Position numbers and translations under genes: made by a program. This document shows, in pieces, positions 5,797 through 20,391 of a DNA stretch of 64,000 nucleotides. Position 1 is the first letter of the stretch; every line of letters begins with the position of its first letter. Source of the stretch: Pelosinus sp. UFO1 (GTDB lineage Bacteria > Bacillota > Negativicutes > DSM-13327); NCBI RefSeq assembly GCF_000725345.1, contig NZ_CP008852.1:4208001-4272000 (forward strand), written 5' to 3'. Under the pieces are notes generated by a model. It did no database searches and was not told the origin of the DNA. It saw only the letters and a list, made by a program, of their open reading frames with translations.

Positions 5797-6576
5797 TCAG
5801 TCCTCCCACTTAATAATTTCACAATTATTAAAACGTGGCAATTCTCTGAAATGGCTCATAAGACACTTTGCGTCCTCACTATTACTAGTGTCTAAAACGT
5901 GCATAGCCCGCATGAATTGAGCGTGGGTAAACATTACTATAAACCTTTCTTCGAGTCGGCTTAGACGGTCAATTGCGGTCTTTGCACGGGATAGCAGCAT
6001 ATTAAAACTCTCCGCTCCTTCTCCATCTACATAGTCAGGATCAAGCCGTTCCCAGTATTCATTTACCCTTTTCTTGCGTTCGTCAGCGGTTGTCCCTATA
6101 CAAGTCTCAGGGGATAGGTATGTAAACTCTTCCACACTCCACACCTCGCGCCTAACATTCGGAAAACGCTTAATTGTTGGTTCTGCTGTCTGTTGTGTTC
6201 GGGTAAAAGGTGAGGTAATGATTAAGGTAGGTGGTTCTTGGAATGATTGGCTTATCTGTTCCGCTTGTGCTTGTCCATCAGGAGATAAAGGAATGGTTTT
6301 GTGATTATTTGTAACGGCTCCGGCATTAGCTGTACTCTCACCATGTCTTATAATCCAAATCTTTTTATCAACTAAAAACTGGTTTCGCTCGTTTATAGTT
6401 AATTTTTCTACATCTTTGCCGTTTTCTTTTGCCCACTTGTACATATCACGAAGTCTATATGATGGTGTCTCAAAGGTGGTATCTAAGTAGCCCCCTGCTT
6501 CCATGGCAGCGTCATCAAATTCAATTGCTTTTTTTATGTCTTCTTTTGTAAGCAAGATAATCGAACTCCTACTCAT
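5797..6576 (-). CDS. Histidine phosphatase superfamily protein
   Basis: A 259-residue phosphatase of the phosphoglycerate-mutase-like fold. The catalytic signature IIRHGESTANAG is at about residues 75-86, a second arginine motif is in SPFTRTQQTAE, and the second catalytic histidine is in MFTHAQFMRAM. The first 70 residues (ILLTKEDIKKAIEFDD and onward) form an extra N-terminal piece not part of the core fold. The gene start overlaps the end of the upstream metallophosphatase gene by 8 bases, so the two phosphatases are made together. The substrate cannot be read from the sequence; small phosphorylated metabolites or nucleotides are both possible. Confidence 0.85.
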   Translation of the reverse strand: MSRSSIILLTKEDIKKAIEFDDAAMEAGGYLDTTFETPSYRLRDMYKWAKENGKDVEKLTINERNQFLVDKKIWIIRHGESTANAGAVTNNHKTIPLSPDGQAQAEQISQSFQEPPTLIITSPFTRTQQTAEPTIKRFPNVRREVWSVEEFTYLSPETCIGTTADERKKRVNEYWERLDPDYVDGEGAESFNMLLSRAKTAIDRLSRLEERFIVMFTHAQFMRAMHVLDTSNSEDAKCLMSHFRELPRFNNCEIIKWED

Positions 6577-8223: not shown

Positions 8224-9336
8224 CTAACGTCCAACGATATCTCTCACTGGACTGCGAAGACCAACATCCCGCTTATTAGTTTTTCGTTTATTTTCTTCAA
8301 GATTGGCACCGTTAGTATTGTTCAATCCAAGCATCATTAATAATCGATCACGATTTTCCTCTAGTTCTATTAATTTAGTTTCCCCCTCCAATATATCGGA
8401 GATCATTTTGTCACACTGGGCTACTGACAAACATCTATCTTCTAGATGCTTTAGTGTGACCGTTGTTGCACCTTCTTTTAATGCCATTTGCAAAGCCTTA
8501 TTTAACCATAACTTCAATGTACCTACGCAACCTACAGAACGTTCGTACAGGTATTGCCAATGACCAACCAAGTTTGGTTCTTCCAGAAGCGGCATTTTTT
8601 TCTGAAACGTATATACCACCTGGAAAAAGTCTTTTGCCTCACTAGAAACATCTGCTCGATATCGTGGGAAATGTACATCAATATTACGACGACTAAGCTG
8701 TCCACTTAAGTTTCGGAATGGGAGCAATTCATATGTACCAAATAATACATGTACAACTTTAGTAGTGCTGGCTAAGGATTTTATGTAGTTAATCTGATCA
8801 CCCAATTTCCTTCCACTAGCTATCATTGACAAATGCTGCGCTTCATCAATTAGAAATGCTTTGGGATCTCGATATATACAGCTATTTTCAAGTGTCCTTC
8901 GAAGTTCAGCTTCGCTGCGACGCTCTTTGGGTATAGTAGGGTAATCGAATAAATTTATATTTCTTCTTTCGCATACTGGATCTTTCAGCATCTGGAGACA
9001 TCTAATATAATAATCTCGCCAATCAAATTTTCCAAAGCTTGGAACAACAATCTCAGTATTCACTACAGGAACATGTCCCGGATCTTCAACTATTTTTTCT
9101 TTTGATGACTCAATGATCTTCTGGATACTCTTTTGACAGAGAGTTGATTTACCCACACCACTTGGCCCATACACTAATATTATTGACGACCCACAAGGTT
9201 CCATAATACTTGTCATAAGTTTTTGATGAGCCTCTTGTAATTTAGGATGAGCAATTGTAATTCCTTCAAAGTATGCGAGGCGATCACTAATAGATTGCTC
9301 AAGAAGCGATTGTGGAAAATTATCTTCCTTTACCAT
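8224..9336 (-). CDS. tnsC: TnsC/TniB-like AAA+ transposition ATPase
   Basis: A 370-residue AAA+ ATPase that links target choice to the transposase in Tn7-like elements. The Walker A motif is GPSGVGKSTL and the Walker B motif is AFLIDEAQHLS, followed by a sensor region VLFGTYELLPF. The ATG at 9336 directly follows the TAG stop of tnsAB and has GAGGAG upstream; a longer in-frame start inside tnsAB has no good site. Order tniQ-tnsAB-tnsC is a single minus-strand unit. TniB and TnsC are close relatives; the TnsA fusion next door makes the Tn7 label better. Confidence 0.9.
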   Translation of the reverse strand: MVKEDNFPQSLLEQSISDRLAYFEGITIAHPKLQEAHQKLMTSIMEPCGSSIILVYGPSGVGKSTLCQKSIQKIIESSKEKIVEDPGHVPVVNTEIVVPSFGKFDWRDYYIRCLQMLKDPVCERRNINLFDYPTIPKERRSEAELRRTLENSCIYRDPKAFLIDEAQHLSMIASGRKLGDQINYIKSLASTTKVVHVLFGTYELLPFRNLSGQLSRRNIDVHFPRYRADVSSEAKDFFQVVYTFQKKMPLLEEPNLVGHWQYLYERSVGCVGTLKLWLNKALQMALKEGATTVTLKHLEDRCLSVAQCDKMISDILEGETKLIELEENRDRLLMMLGLNNTNGANLEENKRKTNKRDVGLRSPVRDIVGR

Positions 9337-9337
9337 A

Positions 9338-12013
9338 CTAATACTCCTCGTACACATCAAAATTTTTTAAATCATTCAAAAATGGGATAAATTCAGATTT
9401 ATCATCTTTGATATCATCATTAGGCAAAGTTTTTTTACCCAATCCGCCATTAATAACTTCTAGTACTTGTTTAGTCTCCAAGTCCTTTTTACTCTGTAAA
9501 AGCTGGCTTTCTTGCTCTTCAACTGGAGCTAAAAACTTAGCAATATTTCCTGCTGTAATAGTAAAGTTTCTTCCATGAACATTCTTTTGCTTACGAATCT
9601 CTTCCGTTGCAATTCTGATTTCTTTTTCCGTCCGATCCTTGAATACTATATAGTATTCTGATGTACAGACAACCCACTGTCCTTTTACATACGCATATGC
9701 GGTACCAGCATCAAAAGGATCGTATCGAATATTAACTTGTTTTTTTTCAATTTCTGGATCACGGAATGCATCTGCCCAATAATAGATATATTTAATTTTT
9801 ACACCACGACCTGGATCAACTTTTGCAGAGCCCTTACTGGTAGTTGGCAACGTGTAGATTCTAAATTCTTCATCATAAGGAATCATGGTATTAAGTCTCT
9901 TTCCACTAGTAAGTAACGCAGTTTCAAAAGCTTCACGAGGGGATTGTCCTAATGCTGGATGTTCTACAGTATCATAAAAGTCATATGCCCATTTACAGAT
10001 CCTATCGTAAAATGTAGCTATGGTCCAAATCGCTTGACCTTTTGGATTGACGGATTTAGTGACTTGACGAACATTTTTTGTTATTTGTGTATTTCCCGTT
10101 AAATTATGTACAAATTCTGTATTCGCTGTTCCAAATAAACGTTCACAAACTGAGCCAAACCTTGCTTTGGCTGGCGGTCTAGTCTTTTTAGTAACTTCAA
10201 AACGAGCCAAAAGAGTTTCGAAATATGTACTATGAAATTCTTTTCCGCCATCAACAACAATCGTCTGCGGCATTCTTAAATGCAACCTAACACATTCTCT
10301 AATTACCATCATACATGACCTATAACTTGGTGCATCATAAGTCAAATATATAGCGAGGATACGTCTTGAGTACGCGTCCATAAGAAATGTTGCCCAAGGG
10401 CGTCCATAATTTTTACCGGTGCGAGAACTTACCAGTTCAATATCCAATTCGGTATGATCAATATGACAAATTTCAAAAGGACGATCCCCATGACGCGGTG
10501 TTTTTACTTCTAGTTCCATATAAAATGCCTCATGTTTATATGCGGCTCGCCTCCCTTGTCTTTTCAGGGTCTGTTCATAAATGGGTCTACTCTTTATCGC
10601 TTTTAAAAATGTTTTATAACTAGGAGCCACTATTCCGCCTTCTAAACACTTATTAACAAGGCCACAGTAGGAAATATATTTTGTTTTTTGCTTTTTAGTT
10701 TCATAGTCTTGCTCAACTGTTTCTTTTATCAATTCTATAGTATTGTCCGGTAATTTACTGTTTCTGTTGCCTCTATTTTTAGTTTTTGGTAAGAGACCAG
10801 CATATCCACAGTTCCAGACTTCCATGCCTTTACGATAATTTGCCACCCACCTACGAACAGTACGACCCGGTATCCCTAAACTATTTTTACACCCTGCTAA
10901 ATACTTTTCCACGATTTCGCATCGTTGGTTAGCAACTTCCATGTCATGACTACTTGCACCTTGTAATAGCATACGTACTGCCGAGCATAGTGAAGCTTTT
11001 TCTGTTTGTTCATGACGTTTTATTTGACCTGACTGGATTAAGGATTTCAAATTATCGCCTGAAAGAATTATTATTTTGCCTTCATCAGATTGGAGTGTCG
11101 AGGAAGAAATACCTGCATTTAAGATAGTCCACAGTATTCCATCCCATTCAAATACTTCCCCTCCCACAACTTTTATAATATTTATATCTATTGGCTTATA
11201 TGACACTACGCTTTGTTTATTTGCCTGTATATGAAATTTAGCAGCATCAATATTGGCATAAACAGAGATTTTATCTACCTCAGCTAAAACTTCAGCATAT
11301 AGATCAACATATATGTCACCTGCAACAATCAAAGCAAAGATATCATCCGCAGTATAATTGTTGCTATATTTAATAAGATTGGATAAGGAGATTCCTCCTT
11401 CGGAATGCACTGCGGAATAAATAGCAAGCCGAGCAATTTCATCAACTTCATGAATTTCACGAAAATAGTCTTCAAGAAATAGTAAGTTCCGCTGATAGAC
11501 CCAATTTATTTTTTGCGAAGATCTTACTTTGAAATATAAACCATACTGCATAGCAAAGGATTCTGCCGGCAGACAGTGCCAGTTTCCATCTTGACCTTTC
11601 GAGTATCGATTAGGCTGTTCAATAGATAATTTCACTAATTCTTCTTCTGTCTTACACTCTTCAAATCCAGCTGAATCAGATCGAATTACAAAAAAATCCG
11701 GTGTATATAAGATGCCAACATTTTTACCTTTGAGAGATTTATAATTTAGTTTAATTGTAGTCGGCTGATCATAATATTCCAGAACACTTTTATTCTGCTC
11801 CAGCTCAAGTACAATCGGTAACTCAACACGATGGCTTTCGAATTGAATCGTTACTCCCATTTTCCGGCTGCAATACCTTCCACTTACGTTGGAAGCATTT
11901 GATGTAACCCTCCTCACTGGATTTGAGTTTCGAATATTCTCAATAAGGGCTTTTGTTCGTTCTGGTATCCTTAAATCATGGCACCATAAATCAAATCCTA
12001 TCTTATCGAACAC
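9338..12013 (-). CDS. tnsAB: TnsA-TnsB fusion transposase
   Basis: An 891-residue fusion. Residues 45-125 resemble the TnsA endonuclease that cuts the 5' strand: a glutamate in QFESHR (E59), TPDFF (D106) and EECK (E119, K121). Residues 380-420 look like a helix-turn-helix (IPGRTVRRWV). The DDE integrase core follows, with D519 in HIDH, D588 in VVDGGKEF and E624 in SVCERLFG, giving a DD(35)E spacing. TnsA and TnsB are separate in Tn7 itself; fusions are known in some Tn7-like groups. Both catalytic sites appear intact, so cut-and-paste movement is expected. Confidence 0.9.
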   Translation of the reverse strand: MFDKIGFDLWCHDLRIPERTKALIENIRNSNPVRRVTSNASNVSGRYCSRKMGVTIQFESHRVELPIVLELEQNKSVLEYYDQPTTIKLNYKSLKGKNVGILYTPDFFVIRSDSAGFEECKTEEELVKLSIEQPNRYSKGQDGNWHCLPAESFAMQYGLYFKVRSSQKINWVYQRNLLFLEDYFREIHEVDEIARLAIYSAVHSEGGISLSNLIKYSNNYTADDIFALIVAGDIYVDLYAEVLAEVDKISVYANIDAAKFHIQANKQSVVSYKPIDINIIKVVGGEVFEWDGILWTILNAGISSSTLQSDEGKIIILSGDNLKSLIQSGQIKRHEQTEKASLCSAVRMLLQGASSHDMEVANQRCEIVEKYLAGCKNSLGIPGRTVRRWVANYRKGMEVWNCGYAGLLPKTKNRGNRNSKLPDNTIELIKETVEQDYETKKQKTKYISYCGLVNKCLEGGIVAPSYKTFLKAIKSRPIYEQTLKRQGRRAAYKHEAFYMELEVKTPRHGDRPFEICHIDHTELDIELVSSRTGKNYGRPWATFLMDAYSRRILAIYLTYDAPSYRSCMMVIRECVRLHLRMPQTIVVDGGKEFHSTYFETLLARFEVTKKTRPPAKARFGSVCERLFGTANTEFVHNLTGNTQITKNVRQVTKSVNPKGQAIWTIATFYDRICKWAYDFYDTVEHPALGQSPREAFETALLTSGKRLNTMIPYDEEFRIYTLPTTSKGSAKVDPGRGVKIKYIYYWADAFRDPEIEKKQVNIRYDPFDAGTAYAYVKGQWVVCTSEYYIVFKDRTEKEIRIATEEIRKQKNVHGRNFTITAGNIAKFLAPVEEQESQLLQSKKDLETKQVLEVINGGLGKKTLPNDDIKDDKSEFIPFLNDLKNFDVYEEY

Positions 12014-12027
12014 GCTTCCACTTCCTA

Positions 12028-13347
12028 TTAATTAGTAGATACCAAGGCTTTCCACACACTTTGAATATTTTTTCTTCTTAAAGCAGCCCTATATGGCATC
12101 GCATTTTCAACAGCTCTTCTGCTTGGATAAATTCCAATGGAATATAAGCGTAATACGGTTTGAGTAATTTTCTTTTTCGCAAGGTCTAATCTTTCCTCAG
12201 CCTGTTGTCTTTGATAGTCTCTATTCTTTTGAATTATCACTTCACATAATTCAGGAAAATATGATTTAAGAATTTTAGTATCTACGTTTAGCCTACGCGC
12301 AGTTTCCTTCAGTGGTAAAGGTGTATTTTCTATATCTGATAAAATCTCATTTAATTGCTGCTGAAGAAACTCTTTATCTAGTTTTCTTCTTTCTTGTTTT
12401 TGATTTTCGTCTGAAGAAGGACGGCTTACGAAAACTTCTTTAAATACAAGAGGCTCTCCTGAGAATATATCCATTACTGATACTCCTGAAATCTTGCAAA
12501 TATGTGCTAATGATTCAATCGGCGGCAGATTCTTTCCTTTTACCCATCCCCACACGGTTGATTTGGGCTTGCATAGAATTCTGGAATATTCCGCTATATT
12601 ACCTCCAGTAGTATGATTAATACATGTTTCAATAAAGTTTCTGATGGTATTTGGCTTTATATCTATTGATATGGTCGGAAATTCTGCAATTGTTTTAGCA
12701 ATTTCTTGTGCAATTATATAAGATAACTCATCACTGTTTATTATTAAAACGTCTGATACAGTTGTCCCCAACCAGCATCTACATTTTGAACAATGCCCTG
12801 GTTTTGAACGGCGCTCTAATATAGGAATCGTTTGGTTGCAACTTGGACAATATTCCTGCAATAATACACCATGATCTATGCAAACGGAAACAGGTTGAAG
12901 CGCCCACAAAAGAGGTTCATATATGGTTTGATTATTATCTTTCCATTCCTTAAGGCAAAATGGGCACCAAGCCTTTTTATTCCGACACAAGTTCCTGTCA
13001 GGTATTACATTGGACAGCAGCATCATTGTAAGGTGATGCAGATCTGAACATAACGTAAGCTCTTCCAATGCCTCTACAAAATCCCGTGCGGCATTTCCAA
13101 TTCCATTCAACATTGAGGCATTTTCGTAAAAGCGTGTTCCACCATCCGCGGCAATGTTGGTTAAGTATGGTTTTTTCAGTATTGGTGTCATTTCTTTAGC
13201 AATTAATTCACCAGTAGTCATACAATGAGCTTCTGCTAAACGAGCAATGTAACTGGTCAAGCTCTCTGAAAGATATGTCCCAACATTAATGGGTTTCAAA
13301 TGGAACAATCGACTTCGGCTAGAAAGCAATCCAATAAAGTTGTCCAT
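12028..13347 (-). CDS. tniQ: TniQ/TnsD-family target-selection protein
   Basis: A 439-residue protein starting at ATG 13347 behind TGGAGG. The TniQ domain begins at once and contains paired zinc ligands (C128/C131, C156/H159, C167/C170, C186/C189). A Cro-like helix-turn-helix follows at about 250-300 (KPKSTVWGWVKGKNLPP), then a tail ending in a TnsD-like segment YPSRRAVENAMPYRAAL. TnsD proteins bind a fixed attachment sequence; the length and extra DNA-binding parts favour TnsD over the short TniQ of CRISPR-guided elements. It is the first gene of the unit, upstream of tnsAB by 14 bases. Confidence 0.88.
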   Translation of the reverse strand: MDNFIGLLSSRSRLFHLKPINVGTYLSESLTSYIARLAEAHCMTTGELIAKEMTPILKKPYLTNIAADGGTRFYENASMLNGIGNAARDFVEALEELTLCSDLHHLTMMLLSNVIPDRNLCRNKKAWCPFCLKEWKDNNQTIYEPLLWALQPVSVCIDHGVLLQEYCPSCNQTIPILERRSKPGHCSKCRCWLGTTVSDVLIINSDELSYIIAQEIAKTIAEFPTISIDIKPNTIRNFIETCINHTTGGNIAEYSRILCKPKSTVWGWVKGKNLPPIESLAHICKISGVSVMDIFSGEPLVFKEVFVSRPSSDENQKQERRKLDKEFLQQQLNEILSDIENTPLPLKETARRLNVDTKILKSYFPELCEVIIQKNRDYQRQQAEERLDLAKKKITQTVLRLYSIGIYPSRRAVENAMPYRAALRRKNIQSVWKALVSTN

Positions 13348-13409
13348 AGATACCTCCACGAAAATATTCCTATATTAAAAGATTTTGCTAATCTAAAAAT
13401 TTTTATACG

Positions 13410-13437
13410 GCAATGGTTTGTATAGTTTTTATCCAAC
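13410..13437 (-). repeat. 28-bp repeat, copy 1, putative TnsB-binding site
   Basis: Minus-strand GTTGGATAAAAACTATACAA followed by ACCATTGC. Matches copy 2 at 13545-13572 in 23 of 28 positions by eye, in the same orientation and 135 bases apart. It is located just upstream of tniQ, where a Tn7-like end carries several TnsB sites. Confidence 0.55.
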
Positions 13438-13544
13438 TCATACTCACAAATAATTATTTAAAACTTGATATAATGTATCGTTGGCTTTTTCCCCGTTTTA
13501 CATGTTAAATCTATAACATATTTTTTCTAGTATTTACTATACAT

Positions 13545-13572
13545 GTAATGACTTGTATAAATTTTATCCAAC
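13545..13572 (-). repeat. 28-bp repeat, copy 2, putative TnsB-binding site
   Basis: Minus-strand GTTGGATAAAATTTATACAA followed by GTCATTAC. It is the outer of the two repeats. A weaker third resemblance (TTGGTCGTACAAATTCTTA) begins near 13616 on the minus strand, but is too degenerate to list. Confidence 0.55.
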
Positions 13573-13593
13573 GCCTAAATATATAATTCTGCC

Positions 13594-13628
13594 AGTTAGT
13601 AAGAATTTGTACGACCAATACACTAACT
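13594..13628. repeat. Inverted repeat AGTTAGT...ACTAACT
   Basis: Perfect 7-bp arms at 13594-13600 and 13622-13628, 21 bases apart. It lies between the putative transposon repeats and the stop of the STAS-winged-helix gene. It could be an operator or part of the transposon end. Confidence 0.35.
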
Positions 13629-13662
13629 ACAATGATTCCTCTACCTGGAAAAATATTATTGT

Positions 13663-14235
13663 TTATCTCGGTAGTGTATATACATACTGCTTTCCGAAAC
13701 TATCAATTACTTCTCGTCTATAGATAACCCTAAACTCATATAGTTTTCTAAGCCTTGTACTTGCAGTACTTAATACTAAATTCTTAGTTTCAGATAACTG
13801 TCTCGCAGTTACCTCTTTGTTTATCAGGCATACGTCAAAAGCCTCAAGTAAATTGGCTTCCATTTTGCCAACTATTTCGTATTTATCATTATGAAAACAT
13901 AAAACAGGAATGCGTAGTCCATCAACTTCCCAAGACTTAATCAGTCTGGTCAAGTTTTCGAAAACCCATATATCCACATTTGATACAAATATCATAGAAT
14001 CAGGATAGCTATCTAAAATTAAACGCTGAAACCCCAATACAAACTCATCTAAAAATGATGTATCAGTAGCCTGTATTCCAGCAAGGCTTAATTCAATCAC
14101 ATCACCAGCATTAATTTTATCTAACTTCTTCAGTGCTAAAAGATAAAATTGCTCCCCAACTGGACGAGTAGCTAATGTTTTTCCTGACAAACCTAATTCA
14201 CATGCTATTTCGTTTAACTCAAGCTTTCTAATCAT
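13663..14235 (-). CDS. STAS-like (DUF4325-type) domain plus winged-helix protein
   Basis: A 190-residue protein. Residues about 35-110 look like a STAS-like domain (GDVIELSLAGIQATDTSFLD, then the LILDSYPDSMIFVSN strand-helix). Residues about 130-190 look like a winged helix (TARQLSETKNLVLSTASTRLRKLYE and a hairpin ending in YVYTLPR). It is divergent from the STAS-ATPase gene at 14373 across 137 bases. The pair resembles anti-sigma or partner-switch modules in which a STAS domain is controlled by a GHKL ATPase. The winged helix suggests direct DNA binding. Confidence 0.6.
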   Translation of the reverse strand: MIRKLELNEIACELGLSGKTLATRPVGEQFYLLALKKLDKINAGDVIELSLAGIQATDTSFLDEFVLGFQRLILDSYPDSMIFVSNVDIWVFENLTRLIKSWEVDGLRIPVLCFHNDKYEIVGKMEANLLEAFDVCLINKEVTARQLSETKNLVLSTASTRLRKLYEFRVIYRREVIDSFGKQYVYTLPR

Positions 14236-14372
14236 AGCTACCTACCCTTTGGATATATTTAATACAAGTCCTATTTATAGATTATATTATGTTTCCATTT
14301 TTGTCAATCAGTTGCAGGACTTATTATTTTTATGAAGTAGTACTTATTATAACGGTTTTGGGAGTGAATACT

Positions 14373-15275
14373 TTGCATAATAAAATAACAAACTATAGCC
14401 CCGAAAACAATACAATAATAGTAACCAACTTAAGTGATTGGCGTGAAATTGATATATTATGGCATGCTTCTGATCGAATTGAAATCGGCAATATCTGCAC
14501 ATTAGATATGTATAATATAAGTTCACTAAATCCTCAAGCCATTGTAATGCTATTTATGCTGTGCAAAAAAATAAAAATGCAATCTGGTTCTGAGGTTTTC
14601 CTTGATAATTTGACACCTCAAATAGATGGCTATCTGCGCCGAGTTAATTTTTTCGACTATGAAGTTGCCACTTCCAAAGGCGAATCTATTGAATTTAGCA
14701 AAAATCCACTTTCTAAGAACTTACTTGAGCTCACGAAGGTGGATTCTTTAATGCAAATTAATAAACTGGGCGATTGGTTTTATGATAATTTTGAACATTG
14801 GTTTCCCGATAAATCCCAATCAATGTACCGACAGCTCTCTTTCGAAGCAATTAACGAGTTGTGTAGTAACAGCGTAGAACATAGTGCCTTTGAAAATAAC
14901 GGTGAAGGTTATTTTATCTTACAAAAGTACTTCGATTTTGCTGGTAAAACAAACGTTATTATGTCCGTCGGAGATTGTGGGATTGGTGTTCGCAACCACT
15001 TGATCAGAAAATATCCTGAGTTATCTTCCAGTGATGAGGCTCATGTGCTATTCGAGGCCCTTTCTGGAAAAAGTGGTAGATTAAGAACCGGCGGTGGCCG
15101 TGGTCTAAAATCTATTTGCAATCTTACTAGAGATTATGGCGGATATTTTGTTATTCGTTCGGGATATGGGCTAGTCCTTATACAGAATGGTACTGTTTTT
15201 TCTGAGATATATTCATATCCTCTTCCTGGCACTCAGTGTGCATTTTGCCTGCGAATCAATAATCCAATGCCCTAA
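14373..15275 (+). CDS. STAS-like domain fused to GHKL ATPase (anti-sigma-factor-like)
   Basis: A 300-residue protein. The start is taken as TTG 14373, eight bases after GGGAGTG, because the upstream in-frame ATG at 14289 has no ribosome site. Residues 1-115 form a STAS-like region (SSLNPQAIVMLFMLCKK, FLDNLTPQIDGYLRRV). Residues 150-280 form a histidine-kinase-type ATPase: N-box E162-N166-H170, G1 motif GDCGIG, and G2 motif GGGRGLKSI. There is no histidine phosphoacceptor, so it should act as an SpoIIAB-like protein kinase or a nucleotide switch. It is the only plus-strand gene in the accessory block. Confidence 0.7.
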   Translation: MHNKITNYSPENNTIIVTNLSDWREIDILWHASDRIEIGNICTLDMYNISSLNPQAIVMLFMLCKKIKMQSGSEVFLDNLTPQIDGYLRRVNFFDYEVATSKGESIEFSKNPLSKNLLELTKVDSLMQINKLGDWFYDNFEHWFPDKSQSMYRQLSFEAINELCSNSVEHSAFENNGEGYFILQKYFDFAGKTNVIMSVGDCGIGVRNHLIRKYPELSSSDEAHVLFEALSGKSGRLRTGGGRGLKSICNLTRDYGGYFVIRSGYGLVLIQNGTVFSEIYSYPLPGTQCAFCLRINNPMP

Positions 15276-15280
15276 TAAAG

Positions 15281-15326
15281 AACTGGGTCTGCAGAGGAGT
15301 GTAAATCCTCTGTAGACCCAGTTTTA
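15281..15326 (+). terminator. Strong intrinsic terminator after the STAS-ATPase gene
   Basis: AACTGGGTCTGCAGAGGA at 15281-15298 pairs with TCCTCTGTAGACCCAGTT at 15306-15323, 17 of 18 pairs, and a short T stretch follows on the plus strand. Confidence 0.85.
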
Positions 15327-15398
15327 ACAAAAATATTATACCTCCAGCGAATCCAAAATGCGGATTATTTCTTCTTACTAAATGATTAAATATCGTTT

Positions 15399-18300
15399 TT
15401 ATTCTAAATACTTTTTTAATATGATTTCTTTTTCTTCATTGATACCAAATAATCTTACTTCTATCTGCTCTATTTCAGCTTCAAGCATTTTTATTTGAGA
15501 AACGATTTTCTGCTGTTCAGAAATAGGTGGCATTGGAACTTTGATTGACATAAAATCACTTACCCTTAATCTTGGTAAACTTGTTCCTTGCATTAAAGCA
15601 GATGATTGGTTTACAAAATTTTTACTCAATATAATTTGTTTTAACAATATTGGTTGTTGGGTTTTGAGGACTAAAATATCAGTAGAGCATACCCCATCAA
15701 ATTCAGCAACCCAAACTTTATTTAGGTATGGGCGTAATTTCCCATATAAAATATCTCCTTTTCTAAAAACAAATTTTGTGCTTTGTATATTGAGAGCAAT
15801 AGTAGGATTAAAATCAATACATTTTCCCGTATTGCTCTCAATATTTTCCAATCCAATGTAGTTTAAAGTTTCACTTGGATTGTTTTGCGGGTCTATTTTA
15901 TCATTTGAAATTGAGCAGATCTCCATGATTACTTTTTCCTCAATAAAAGATCCTAAAATATTTTCAATTTTCTTTTTTAAAGCATCAATTTTTTCTTTAT
16001 CTTCTTTGTCTTTCTTTTCAATTGCTTCAATTTCTCCTATGATTTTTTCTTGTATATCCTTAGGCGGCAATGGGATTATAAAATTTTTAATTATATCCTG
16101 AGATATATTTAAACGAGCTACCCCACTTCGCAAACTTAGAAAATTGTCTAATTGAGTTCTTAAATAATTGTAGAGATACAGCGGCAAAACATGCTCACTT
16201 GGTAATATCCCACATATTGCCTGATTTGTGGTAGCCTCAATTCCCAAAACACCAACTTGTCCAGCAGTTGCTCCATACATTGCCACTAAAACCGTATCTT
16301 TAGGAAATAATTTAGCAGACGAATTATCTACCCCTAATGGTGTTATTTTTTTTTCCGTTTCATAAATAATGCCCTGACGTACTTCACCACTGTTTACCCA
16401 AGGAATAGTACCATTTGTGTAATATTTAGATATAGATTTTAATGGAGTACCACCTGAACTTGTTTCACAAATCTGACTAATTTTAGTCAGATTCCACTTA
16501 CTTTTAACATCTATTTTTTTTATGTTCAACGAAATATTTTTTTCAAACAACATTTTACTAAAATCCAGCAATTGGACCGTATCAATAGAAAAAATATTTT
16601 CATTTAGTGATTTATGTATATCCAATTTCTCCCCTAGGAACGCCCTATAAACATAACTATTTGCTTTCTCTGGATTTAGAGGATTCGTCTCATCATATAG
16701 CCTTGTTGTAGCCTTCCCGTTTTCATCACGATACATTTTTATGCCTTCATGTCCTCTGCGGTTGCTAAACTCATAACCAATAAAATCCTTTTCAGACTGC
16801 TTTTCGCCCACTTTTATTAGCACTGTTTGCTGAGAATATGCAAGGAAGAAGTATAACATTTTGTCTTGTTCTCGTTCAAACACTTTTTGATAAAAGAGCT
16901 TATCAAGTTCATTTTGTTGGTTGATTTTATTCATGTCTTTAAACACATTTTTAGCTTTAAGCTGCTTAACTTCAGTTAGCCCTGCAAACCAGTTTTTATA
17001 ATCTTTATACAGTTCTTGGTTTTGAATTGTATCGTTTGGCTTTTGGTCTATCAAAGAAATATAATCACCAAAACTAATATCCTCAAAAACTTCACTAACA
17101 TATTTACTAAATGCTTTTTCTATACCGTTTACTGTAGCATCTTTAGGATTGTCAAAAAAGCTGTTAATTGCTACCTGTATTTTTTTATGATCAATATTTG
17201 CTCTACGTTCTAAAAATAAAGTAACAGTATTTGTACCTGTTGCCATAAAGGTATTTGAACCAAATTCAGCAATAGCCTTAATATTGAAATACTTAAGAAT
17301 AAGTTCACGTGCAGCGGTATAAATTCCAGAATTGCTTAGTATAGAACTTGGTAGTATTATTCCTGCCCAACCACCAACTTTTAACAGTTGTTTTGTACGT
17401 TCAATAAACAAACATTCAATTTCCGAACTATCTTCTGTAAGCCTATCAAATAATTCAAATGATTCTCTGCCATGCTTAACAGTGTTTTTGAACGCAGAAA
17501 CACTGTATGGGGGATTTGCCACCAAAACATCAAACTGTCCGTTGTCTTTTGGGTCATCTTTTGTAGTCTCTTTAAGTTTTCCTTTATAATCATTTGATTT
17601 TTTGAAATGATCTAACCCATCAGCACGTATAATTATAGCTTCACCATCGCCATTAAGAAATGAGCTTACTTTCGTAGTCTTAACTAATCGGTAATCTGCT
17701 TCAATTCCATATACATATTCCTTTGCCCATTCAAATTGATCTTGTTTCCACCCTCTGATTTTTTTTGTTGCATTAGGTCTTAATCCAGCTGTGTCAAAAT
17801 TATCAATAATCGTTTGAACTTCGTCCATCCATTCAGTGAGAAAATGTCCGCTACCTGTTGCATAGTCAATAGCGGCTGGTAATATATCTACTTCGTTTTT
17901 TTGTATTTGATTTGCAATAAACTCTTTAATCGGAAGAGATGAGATAATAAACTTTGTAATAGGAACAGGGGTGAAGAATTGTCCTGACTCTTGTTTAATA
18001 CTTGTGTTTAAAAGCAATTCAAAAAAGTCGCCTAAGAATTGTTGTTTATGTCCATATCTAAATTGATATGGCTGTAATAACTCAACTATTTCTTTTACAA
18101 CTGTTCCATTATCTATAAAAGACTGATTGTTATATACTTCTTTAAAAGCAAATTCAGGATTCTTTTGCAATCTAATTTGTAAAAACATGTCTTTAATTTG
18201 CTTTTTTATCTCTATCTCATTTATATTGTACAGCTTATCGTCAAGATCTGTATTAGAGTAATCGGTAACCTCAATATCAAGAAACCGTTTCATTCCCTCA

Positions 18301-20009: not shown

Positions 20010-20044
20010 AGTCACATCTATACTAGGTGGAGGGGATATTCAAT

Positions 20045-20391
20045 TGGTGGAGGCGAGGAGAATCGAACTCCTGTCCAAAGGCATCACTACATAGGCTTCT
20101 CCGAGCGCATTCTGTATTTTAGATTTCGCCCCATTGACGCTTACAGACAAGCTTCGCTGGCGCTATCTCTTTAAAATTTCCCAGTTGGTCCGCGGAGAAT
20201 TAGACCTCAGGTATCCTGCATTGTGACGTCCTAGCCTTCCCCACAGGAAGAGGGACGGTAGAACGTTAGCATTAAGCTGCTAAAGCGTATTCGTTGTTTG
20301 CATTTATAACTTTCCACCGTATTGACGGGCTGATGGAATCCCGGCTCGCTACCTATGCCACAACCACCCCTGTCGAAACCATTACGCCCCC
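20045..20391 (-). ncRNA. ssrA: Transfer-messenger RNA (tmRNA)
   Basis: A 347-base tmRNA that rescues stalled ribosomes with SmpB. The 5' end GGGGGCG pairs with CGCCTCC ahead of the 3' ACCA, making a tRNA-like acceptor stem, and the T-arm GTTCGATTC is present near the 3' end. The tag-coding part runs from 20301 to 20272 and reads ANNEYALAA then TAA, so the full tag after the alanine from tmRNA is AANNEYALAA. The smpB gene is 1.2 kb away. Its 3' end marks the boundary to the accessory DNA, a frequent integration site. Confidence 0.97.

Follow-up and report, generated by a model that had tools for sequence, protein, structure and literature searches.

A CapK+CapS-type pair of kinase and repressor genes beside the transposition genes of a Tn7-like element of Pelosinus, with a possible role in their control

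The window which we have studied is a stretch of 64,000 nucleotides from Pelosinus sp. UFO1 (contig NZ_CP008852.1, positions 4,208,001 to 4,272,000). It contains the right end of a Tn7-like transposon, with a divergent pair of genes, capS-like and capK-like, next to the transposition genes. The features needed for the discussion are the following, in window positions:

8224..9360, minus strand: tnsC ATPase (Pfam AAA_22, TniB)
9338..12013, minus strand: tnsAB fusion transposase (TnsA N-terminal domain 1e-8, Mu-transpos_C 3.2e-8; rve 3.4e-6, below cut-off)
12028..13359, minus strand: tniQ, whose product is a target selector like TnsD; it would be the first gene of the regulated operon (Pfam TniQ 4.4e-19; TniQ_IB 6.4e-46)
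13418..13436, plus strand: dyad 3, a proposed operator for CapS, 58 bp from the start of tniQ (pattern count)
13553..13571, plus strand: dyad 2, a proposed operator for CapS between capS and tniQ (pattern count)
13663..14235, minus strand: capS-like gene (ORF list, alignment, profile search, AlphaFold2, VIA-align)
14236..14372, no strand: divergent control region, 137 bp (from the sequence)
14249..14267, minus strand: dyad 1 (TTGTATTAAATATATCCAA), a proposed operator for CapS which lies 13 bp ahead of the capS start codon (pattern count)
14307-14281, minus strand: candidate capS promoter TTGACA-15-TATAAT (by eye)
14373..15275, plus strand: capK-like gene, STAS and GHKL kinase without N-terminal HTH (alignments, fold prediction; start codon by inspection)
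20017..20021, no strand: TCTAT target duplication, right copy; the last position of the element is 20016 (TGTGACTGGAAGG, minus strand)

The genes capS, tniQ, tnsAB and tnsC are all on one strand: tnsAB starts 14 bp after tniQ and tnsC overlaps tnsAB by 23 bp. On the other side of the pair there is a type IIG restriction enzyme. A preliminary description of the window had placed a divergent pair of STAS-winged-helix and STAS-GHKL genes between a transposon and a restriction enzyme. This arrangement is confirmed: both open reading frames are found as given above, on opposite strands, and the shared control region has the 137 bp described when TTG at 14373 is the kinase start.

The transposon has tnsA/B, tnsC and tniQ, inverted TGT ends and a 5-bp target duplication, which are hallmarks of Tn7-like elements. 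Its ends are inverted TGTGACTGGAA, with a TCTAT duplication. The left end is outside the window (G000:C1:4195778); with the right end at 20016 this gives a length of 32,239 bp. The insertion site is the loop of the terminator hairpin after the tmRNA gene (ssrA), at 20016-20045 in the window and at L062:7773-7800; the tmRNA gene itself lies at 20045-20391. A relative (G005) has the same hairpin uninterrupted. Among the literature titles and passages searched, none describes a tmRNA-terminator target for Tn7-like elements, and a survey of Tn7-like cargo gave no hit in a word search for tmRNA, ssrA, STAS, histidine kinase or Xre (PMC8649781).

Wadjet-like JetC and JetD genes are found in the left part of the element (L062:15743-19924; PADLOC 2e-19 and 7.6e-21). 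The gene at 565-1812 is a JetA candidate from its position only, with no PADLOC match. A further cargo cluster (L062:9828-14343) contains a second GHKL-like protein of 350 aa, with motifs recognised by eye, and a 366-aa protein which appears phosphoribosyltransferase-like by eye, both of them with no Pfam match; it also has a calcineurin-like phosphoesterase and a ThyX-type thymidylate synthase (Pfam Thy1 8.2e-53). As for the restriction enzyme, which the preliminary description offered as a possible target of the pair, it is an unlikely one, since its gene is convergent with capK, starts about 4 kb away (19214) and has no dyad near its start, even with up to two mismatches.

The pair can be compared with CapK+CapS, a switch formed by a kinase and a DNA-binding repressor (PMC13373217, EMBO J, June 2026). 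In that system the repressor CapS occupies palindromes in two promoters, its own and that of an immune operon downstream. Single-stranded DNA (ssDNA) activates CapK, which phosphorylates a serine of the STAS domain (S54 in E. roggenkampii CapS); the CapS dimer then splits and transcription rises (PMC13373217). A profile of six homologues of the window repressor finds the CapS chains 9Z72/9Z73 with 1.3e-33 and 9Z71 with 7.8e-31, the next match being at 0.0003. The proteins in these entries are CapS from two species, Vibrio cholerae (as an S58A mutant) and Enterobacter roggenkampii (PMC13373217). To judge by sequence, it is nearly certain that the window pair belongs to the CapK+CapS family. The statement of the preliminary description that no characterised example was known has thus been overtaken. 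Its idea of a self-contained STAS/GHKL pair which acts on DNA without a sigma factor is kept, as is a possible control of the transposon; the term partner switch is loose, as the published phosphorylation splits a repressor dimer.

The capS-like gene has 190 codons on the minus strand. The AlphaFold2 model of its protein, from a 22-row alignment, has a mean pLDDT of 92.0. With VIA-align its residues 1-116 resemble the STAS protein TM1442 (1vc1; Z 10.1, rmsd 2.3, 93 residues), the model resembles SpoIIAA (1til; Z 9.6, rmsd 2.8, 100 residues) and residues of about 124-190 resemble winged helices of the MarR/ArsR type. The predicted layout is a STAS domain (about 1-116) followed by a winged helix (about 124-190), so that the STAS fold assigned earlier is recovered in the structure prediction. 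The best 50 Foldseek matches of the repressor are mostly winged-helix proteins, and no title among them names a STAS protein. The CapS entries 9Z71-9Z73 are absent among the fold-search matches listed, which come from library entries released up to 8 April 2026.

The proposed target serine is S60, within TDTSFLDE: it aligns with the target serine of CapS in the profile alignment. D58, S60 and F61 are invariant in all 22 aligned CapS-like proteins, i.e. the window and 21 of the 22 genome-contig loci (L022 was omitted as a copy of L021), and S60 is also conserved in all six proteins of a smaller alignment. The positions through which CapS contacts DNA are less similar: one of four matches (G170), while the CapS contacts N145, K151 and G169 correspond to T157, R163 and F180 in the window protein, as read by eye from the alignments.

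The longest frame of the kinase gene is 14289-15275 on the plus strand, with a likely start at TTG 14373, after a GGGAG ribosome site recognised by eye. The match of the longer frame in Pelosinus propionicus DSM 13327 (G024) is interrupted by one TAG, which favours the shorter protein of 300 residues. Its model has a pLDDT of 83.7. The second domain resembles SpoIIAB (1tid_C; Z 11.0, rmsd 2.5, 131 residues with VIA-align), RsbW (Z 10.3) and the anti-sigma-F factor UsfX (Z 9.4). On weaker grounds the first domain is considered STAS-like: they are Foldseek matches of unstated range on the model (6m36_H, TMt 0.65; 4hyl, TMt 0.56), weak profile matches to TM1442 (E 0.0077, profile positions 32-90) and SpoIIAA (E 0.074), and membership in the family. 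The residues of the ATP site are E162, N166, H170, D201, G203 and G205 in the 300-aa numbering. The last five are invariant in 19 aligned kinases and E162 is found in at least 90% of them; the alignment comprises the kinases of the window and of 18 loci out of the 20 that have a match, a split gene (L021) and a short one (L029) being omitted.

According to alignment and model the window kinase starts at the STAS domain, with no N-terminal HTH. Kinases of this kind pair with CapS-like proteins in cyanobacterial, Chloroflexota and Bacillota loci, and a CapK with its HTH deleted retained activity (PMC13373217); we therefore do not treat the HTH as a defining feature of the family. W23 is a candidate for stacking on ssDNA: it aligns with CapK W68 in four sequences of a six-sequence alignment, but not across the two kinase groups in the alignment of 19. 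In Pfam, PADLOC and NCBIfam the pair has no named family: the only matches are sub-threshold ones to DUF4325 (E=0.0039 in Pfam), HTH_10 and HATPase (HATPase_c 26.1 bits, with a threshold of 26.4). None of the titles found in a literature search for DUF4325 concerns this two-gene system. The kinase has no match in the phage records searched, and the 11 pattern matches in viral contigs include no confirmed relative.

The preliminary description would be in doubt if homologues of the two proteins were consistently found apart. We have compared 25 homologous loci, 22 from a scan of genome contigs and three from plasmids; plasmid L008, which is a near-copy of L007, and second matches in Vibrio and Cytobacillus were left out. 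The partners stay together: capK adjoins capS in 23 loci, directly upstream and co-directional in 22 of them, divergent in the remaining one, P. propionicus. As for the other two, in L034 the contig ends there and L028 has no kinase match. Five loci found by profile (L013-L017) are outside this set; a kinase gene is present in three, which would make 26 of 30. In L029 the kinase frame has only 166 aa. In a Lachnospiraceae locus (L021:7420-9903) capK appears by eye to be interrupted by a transposase-like gene, while its capS is still present, as are the ubiquitin-like conjugation genes downstream.

A set of ubiquitin-like conjugation or CBASS genes is found within about 7 kb downstream of capS in 16 of the 25 loci. 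Nine are of ThiF/E1 type and form one BLAST cluster, five are of E2-E1-JAB type and form another, L020 has DUF2604/JAB/E2-ThiF and L023 a CBASS-type synthase; Pfam was run on four of the nine and one of the five. Two further loci have a downstream DUF1508 protein, a family which we take to be YegP-like. YegP is named in the CapKS paper (PMC13373217). This spectrum of downstream genes resembles the published neighbours of CapK+CapS: there each of 443 capK genes is immediately upstream of capS and 348 are then followed by a known or predicted immune operon (PMC13373217). Such an operon is thus usual, not required.

Genes of the tns type downstream of capS are found only in two related elements, those of the window and of P. 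propionicus. Three other loci (L020, L037 and L039) have capKS within about 9 kb of Tn7-like genes (TnsD, TnsE, TniB/TnsC, TniQ and TnsB-like, the TnsB-like Pfam matches in L020 and L037 being just below cut-off), but there capKS reads toward other genes. Their presence suggests that capKS may ride on Tn7-like elements more than once.

A different neighbour is found in five genomes of the same phylum, where a capS-like gene lies directly before recA-recX: L069 (G306), L070 (G341), L071 (G228), L072 (G226) and L014 (G269). Pfam identifies RecA and RecX in L072 and RecA in L071; the others were recognised by eye. A capK-like gene precedes capS in G226, G306 and G341; none is found in the 14.8 kb available of G228 and the 3.5 kb of G269. 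Four of the five genomes are all those examined from one order. The LexA DNA-binding family is found in G226 and G341, is below cut-off in G306 (a genome 81% complete) and is not found in G228 and G269. These loci possibly represent control of recA by a kinase and repressor. A word search for recA in the CapKS paper finds it only with a knockout strain (PMC13373217).

A related element is found in P. propionicus DSM 13327, at the same site and with the same arrangement capK-capS-tniQ-tnsAB-tnsC. DNA identity is 92-93% from capK through tnsC to window position 6569. The cargo between capK and the tmRNA gene is unrelated, save the last 80 bases or so at the transposon end. The CapS-like proteins are 98.4% identical, with four synonymous and three nonsynonymous changes between the genes; capK has dN 0.088, dS 0.69 and dN/dS 0.127, and its identity drops toward the 3' end, as if the junction with the cargo had recombined within the gene. 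The P. propionicus cargo (L009:8104-10809) contains FRG (PADLOC PDC-S15), Beta_protein and a cll-like gene at the place where the window has the type IIG enzyme. Its tniQ (L009:13002-14222) codes for 406 aa, compared with 443 in the window: near the 3' end (window 12091-12151) the alignment is interrupted, as if some 60 bases had been deleted.

A more distant element is found in G078, with tniQ 36%, TnsAB 42-43% and tnsC 39% identical. In the equivalent place it has an Xre-type HTH gene which diverges from tniQ. This suggests, without proving it, that the place is occupied by a regulator of the tns genes. Such regulators have been described for CRISPR-associated Tn7-like elements: RtaC/RtbC, of the Xre family, and CvkR, of the MerR type (PMC11406308).

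We will now consider the control regions. The promoter scan was limited to spacers of 16-18, and the capS candidate TTGACA-15-TATAAT is not in its list; nor does it list any sigma-70-like promoter before tniQ on the tniQ strand. The capS-tniQ gap (303 bp) contains two 31-mers which are 81% identical to each other. Their dyad gave the pattern TTGTATN6TATCCAA, which is therefore derived from sites that were then counted; the third dyad, before capS, had been spotted by eye ahead of the genome count. There are exactly three copies in the genome of 5,115,410 bp, all of them within 850 bp at capS: one before capS and two between capS and tniQ. The same pattern written backwards has no exact copy. 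Near-copies are not rare: with at most one mismatch there are 28 sites in the genome, 25 of them outside the capS locus, versus 12 for the backwards control. An exact dyad appeared in three of 100,000 gaps of 137 bp simulated with a first-order Markov model. The three equivalent places of P. propionicus have exact dyads before capS and before tniQ and a dyad with one mismatch at the remaining place. Six other Pelosinus genomes, which have no capS match, contain 0, 0, 1, 1, 1 and 2 exact dyads, five in total.

Three other Bacillota lineages have a different dyad, also of 19 bp. In Sporomusa (L019) and in Lachnospiraceae/Enterocloster (L021, L022) an exact TTCAC-N9-GTGAA is found 3-12 bp before and 22-34 bp after capS; in Peptococcaceae (L020) capS is flanked by two copies, each with one mismatch. 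As L021 and L022 have both sites in common, the number of independent cases is three. Dyads just before and just after capS are, to judge from their positions, the layout published for CapS. The pattern was picked after viewing the comparison of 19-bp matches between the two gaps, and at one mismatch or less its matches per locus do not exceed the maximum of 20 shuffles: exactness and placement carry weight, not the number of matches. When the best 19-bp match between both gaps is compared with 30 mononucleotide shuffles, the window, L021 and L007 beat all of them and the other 21 of the 24 loci do not; in P. propionicus two of the 30 shuffles reach its score. By analogy with CapS we propose that the dyads are binding sites of the repressor. 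A terminator scan from 13340 to 15400 lists none; its silence has little weight, as it also missed an evident hairpin with a T run after capK (15281-15325). The folding of the capS-tniQ gap is not unusual (z -0.34).

Altogether the pair is probably a switch of the CapK+CapS type which responds to DNA damage and regulates both itself and the transposition genes. Control of the transposase operon, which we consider rather likely, is its best-supported function. The observations behind it are that both proteins belong to the family, with the serine of the one and the kinase residues of the other conserved, that the dyads are clustered, that the ends of the element and its target duplication are found, and that a second species has the same gene arrangement. 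Dimerisation, phosphorylation and activation by ssDNA would follow from analogy with the published system, and we infer that tns expression and transposition respond to the switch. Unphosphorylated dimers of the CapS-like protein would bind the 19-bp dyads before capS and before tniQ and keep capS and tniQ-tnsAB-tnsC low. When ssDNA builds up upon DNA damage, phage infection or perhaps conjugative entry, the CapK-like kinase would phosphorylate S60 and the dimer would fall apart. The repressor and the transposition genes would then be expressed, and the element would move when its host is endangered. As to how this came about, we are evenly divided on a further proposal: that a Tn7-like transposon took a damage-sensing kinase and repressor pair from immunity as an on-switch for its transposase, so that ssDNA triggers transposition through phosphorylation of the repressor and not through LexA/SOS.

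Another explanation, which appears unlikely though it deserves attention, is that capKS is ordinary defence cargo and regulates only itself: it would formerly have regulated an immune operon too, since lost or swapped, and turnover of the cargo would have left it next to tniQ by accident. Several features agree with it. Ubiquitin-like conjugation or CBASS genes are downstream of capS in the 16 loci mentioned above; in L020 and L037 capKS is beside tns-like genes and yet faces ubiquitin-like conjugation genes and a DUF1508 gene; in P. propionicus the FRG gene follows capK on the same strand; and the falling identity of capK toward its 3' end is what is expected at a cargo junction. However, two of the three exact dyads are between capS and tniQ, one of them 58 bp from the tniQ start, and the pair has been kept with the tns genes in two species while the cargo changes. 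The dyads of this gap might instead be sites for a transposon protein, as in autoregulation of the TnsB type, and not CapS sites. We have kept this quite improbable reading because of a shared core of nine bases: the repeats of the right end contain GGATAAAAT, which is also found inside the reverse strand of dyad 2. These repeats continue into GGCC or GACC, though, without the TTG...CAA dyad; moreover a third dyad precedes capS, and in other lineages, too, the capS gene of the capKS loci is flanked by 19-bp dyads.

Two further explanations concern the nature of the pair itself, and both seem very improbable to us. It could be the relic of a toxin-antitoxin system of the VapKSC type, as its STAS-GHKL kinase lacks the HTH like VapK, and it was through HTH-less CapK homologues that VapK was reached (PMC13373217). 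But its partner has a full winged helix and matches CapS, and none of seven window proteins run through Pfam has a PIN-domain (VapC-like) match. The SpoIIAB-like fold of the kinase domain would also fit a classical switch of anti-sigma and anti-anti-sigma factors acting on a host sigma factor; against this, its partner has a DNA-binding domain of its own, and direct action on DNA is what the characterised members of the family show (PMC13373217).

Should CapKS indeed control the transposase operon, the module would be a portable damage sensor which times the movement of a mobile element, beyond the regulation of immune operons. It would provide a simple route from ssDNA to Tn7-like transposition without SOS, and elements with defence cargo would be predicted to mobilise during phage attack on their host.

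Several known systems are related to this pair. RtaC/RtbC and CvkR are also transcriptional regulators of Tn7-like transposition functions carried by the element, but they are single-protein regulators and not a kinase-driven switch, as described there (PMC11406308). SpoIIAB/SpoIIAA and RsbW/RsbV share the folds of GHKL kinase and STAS protein, with a serine at the start of a STAS helix; the difference is that the STAS protein of the window would itself bind DNA and a sigma factor is not needed. VapKSC also has an HTH-less STAS-GHKL kinase with a STAS partner, but VapS has no winged helix and guards the VapC toxin (PMC13373217), whereas the window partner has one. The closest system is CapK+CapS, with adjacent genes for a STAS-winged-helix repressor with its target serine and a STAS-GHKL kinase, and dyads ahead of capS and after it, before the next gene. 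In its main text a word search finds neither Tn7 nor any word starting with transpos (PMC13373217), and none of the literature titles searched links CapKS with a transposon. The window pair differs in several respects: its genes are divergent, while the published capK is always directly followed by capS; its kinase has no N-terminal HTH; its dyad is TTGTATN6TATCCAA instead of 'wide' and 'narrow' sites with TTAA half-sites (PMC13373217), although size and placement are alike; and the gene downstream of capS is tniQ of a transposase operon, not an immune operon. The divergent order is not treated as defining, since gene order is outside the CapK+CapS mechanism. What is new in comparison with the published system is the gene order and the kind of target; the mechanism, by analogy, is presumably the same in outline.
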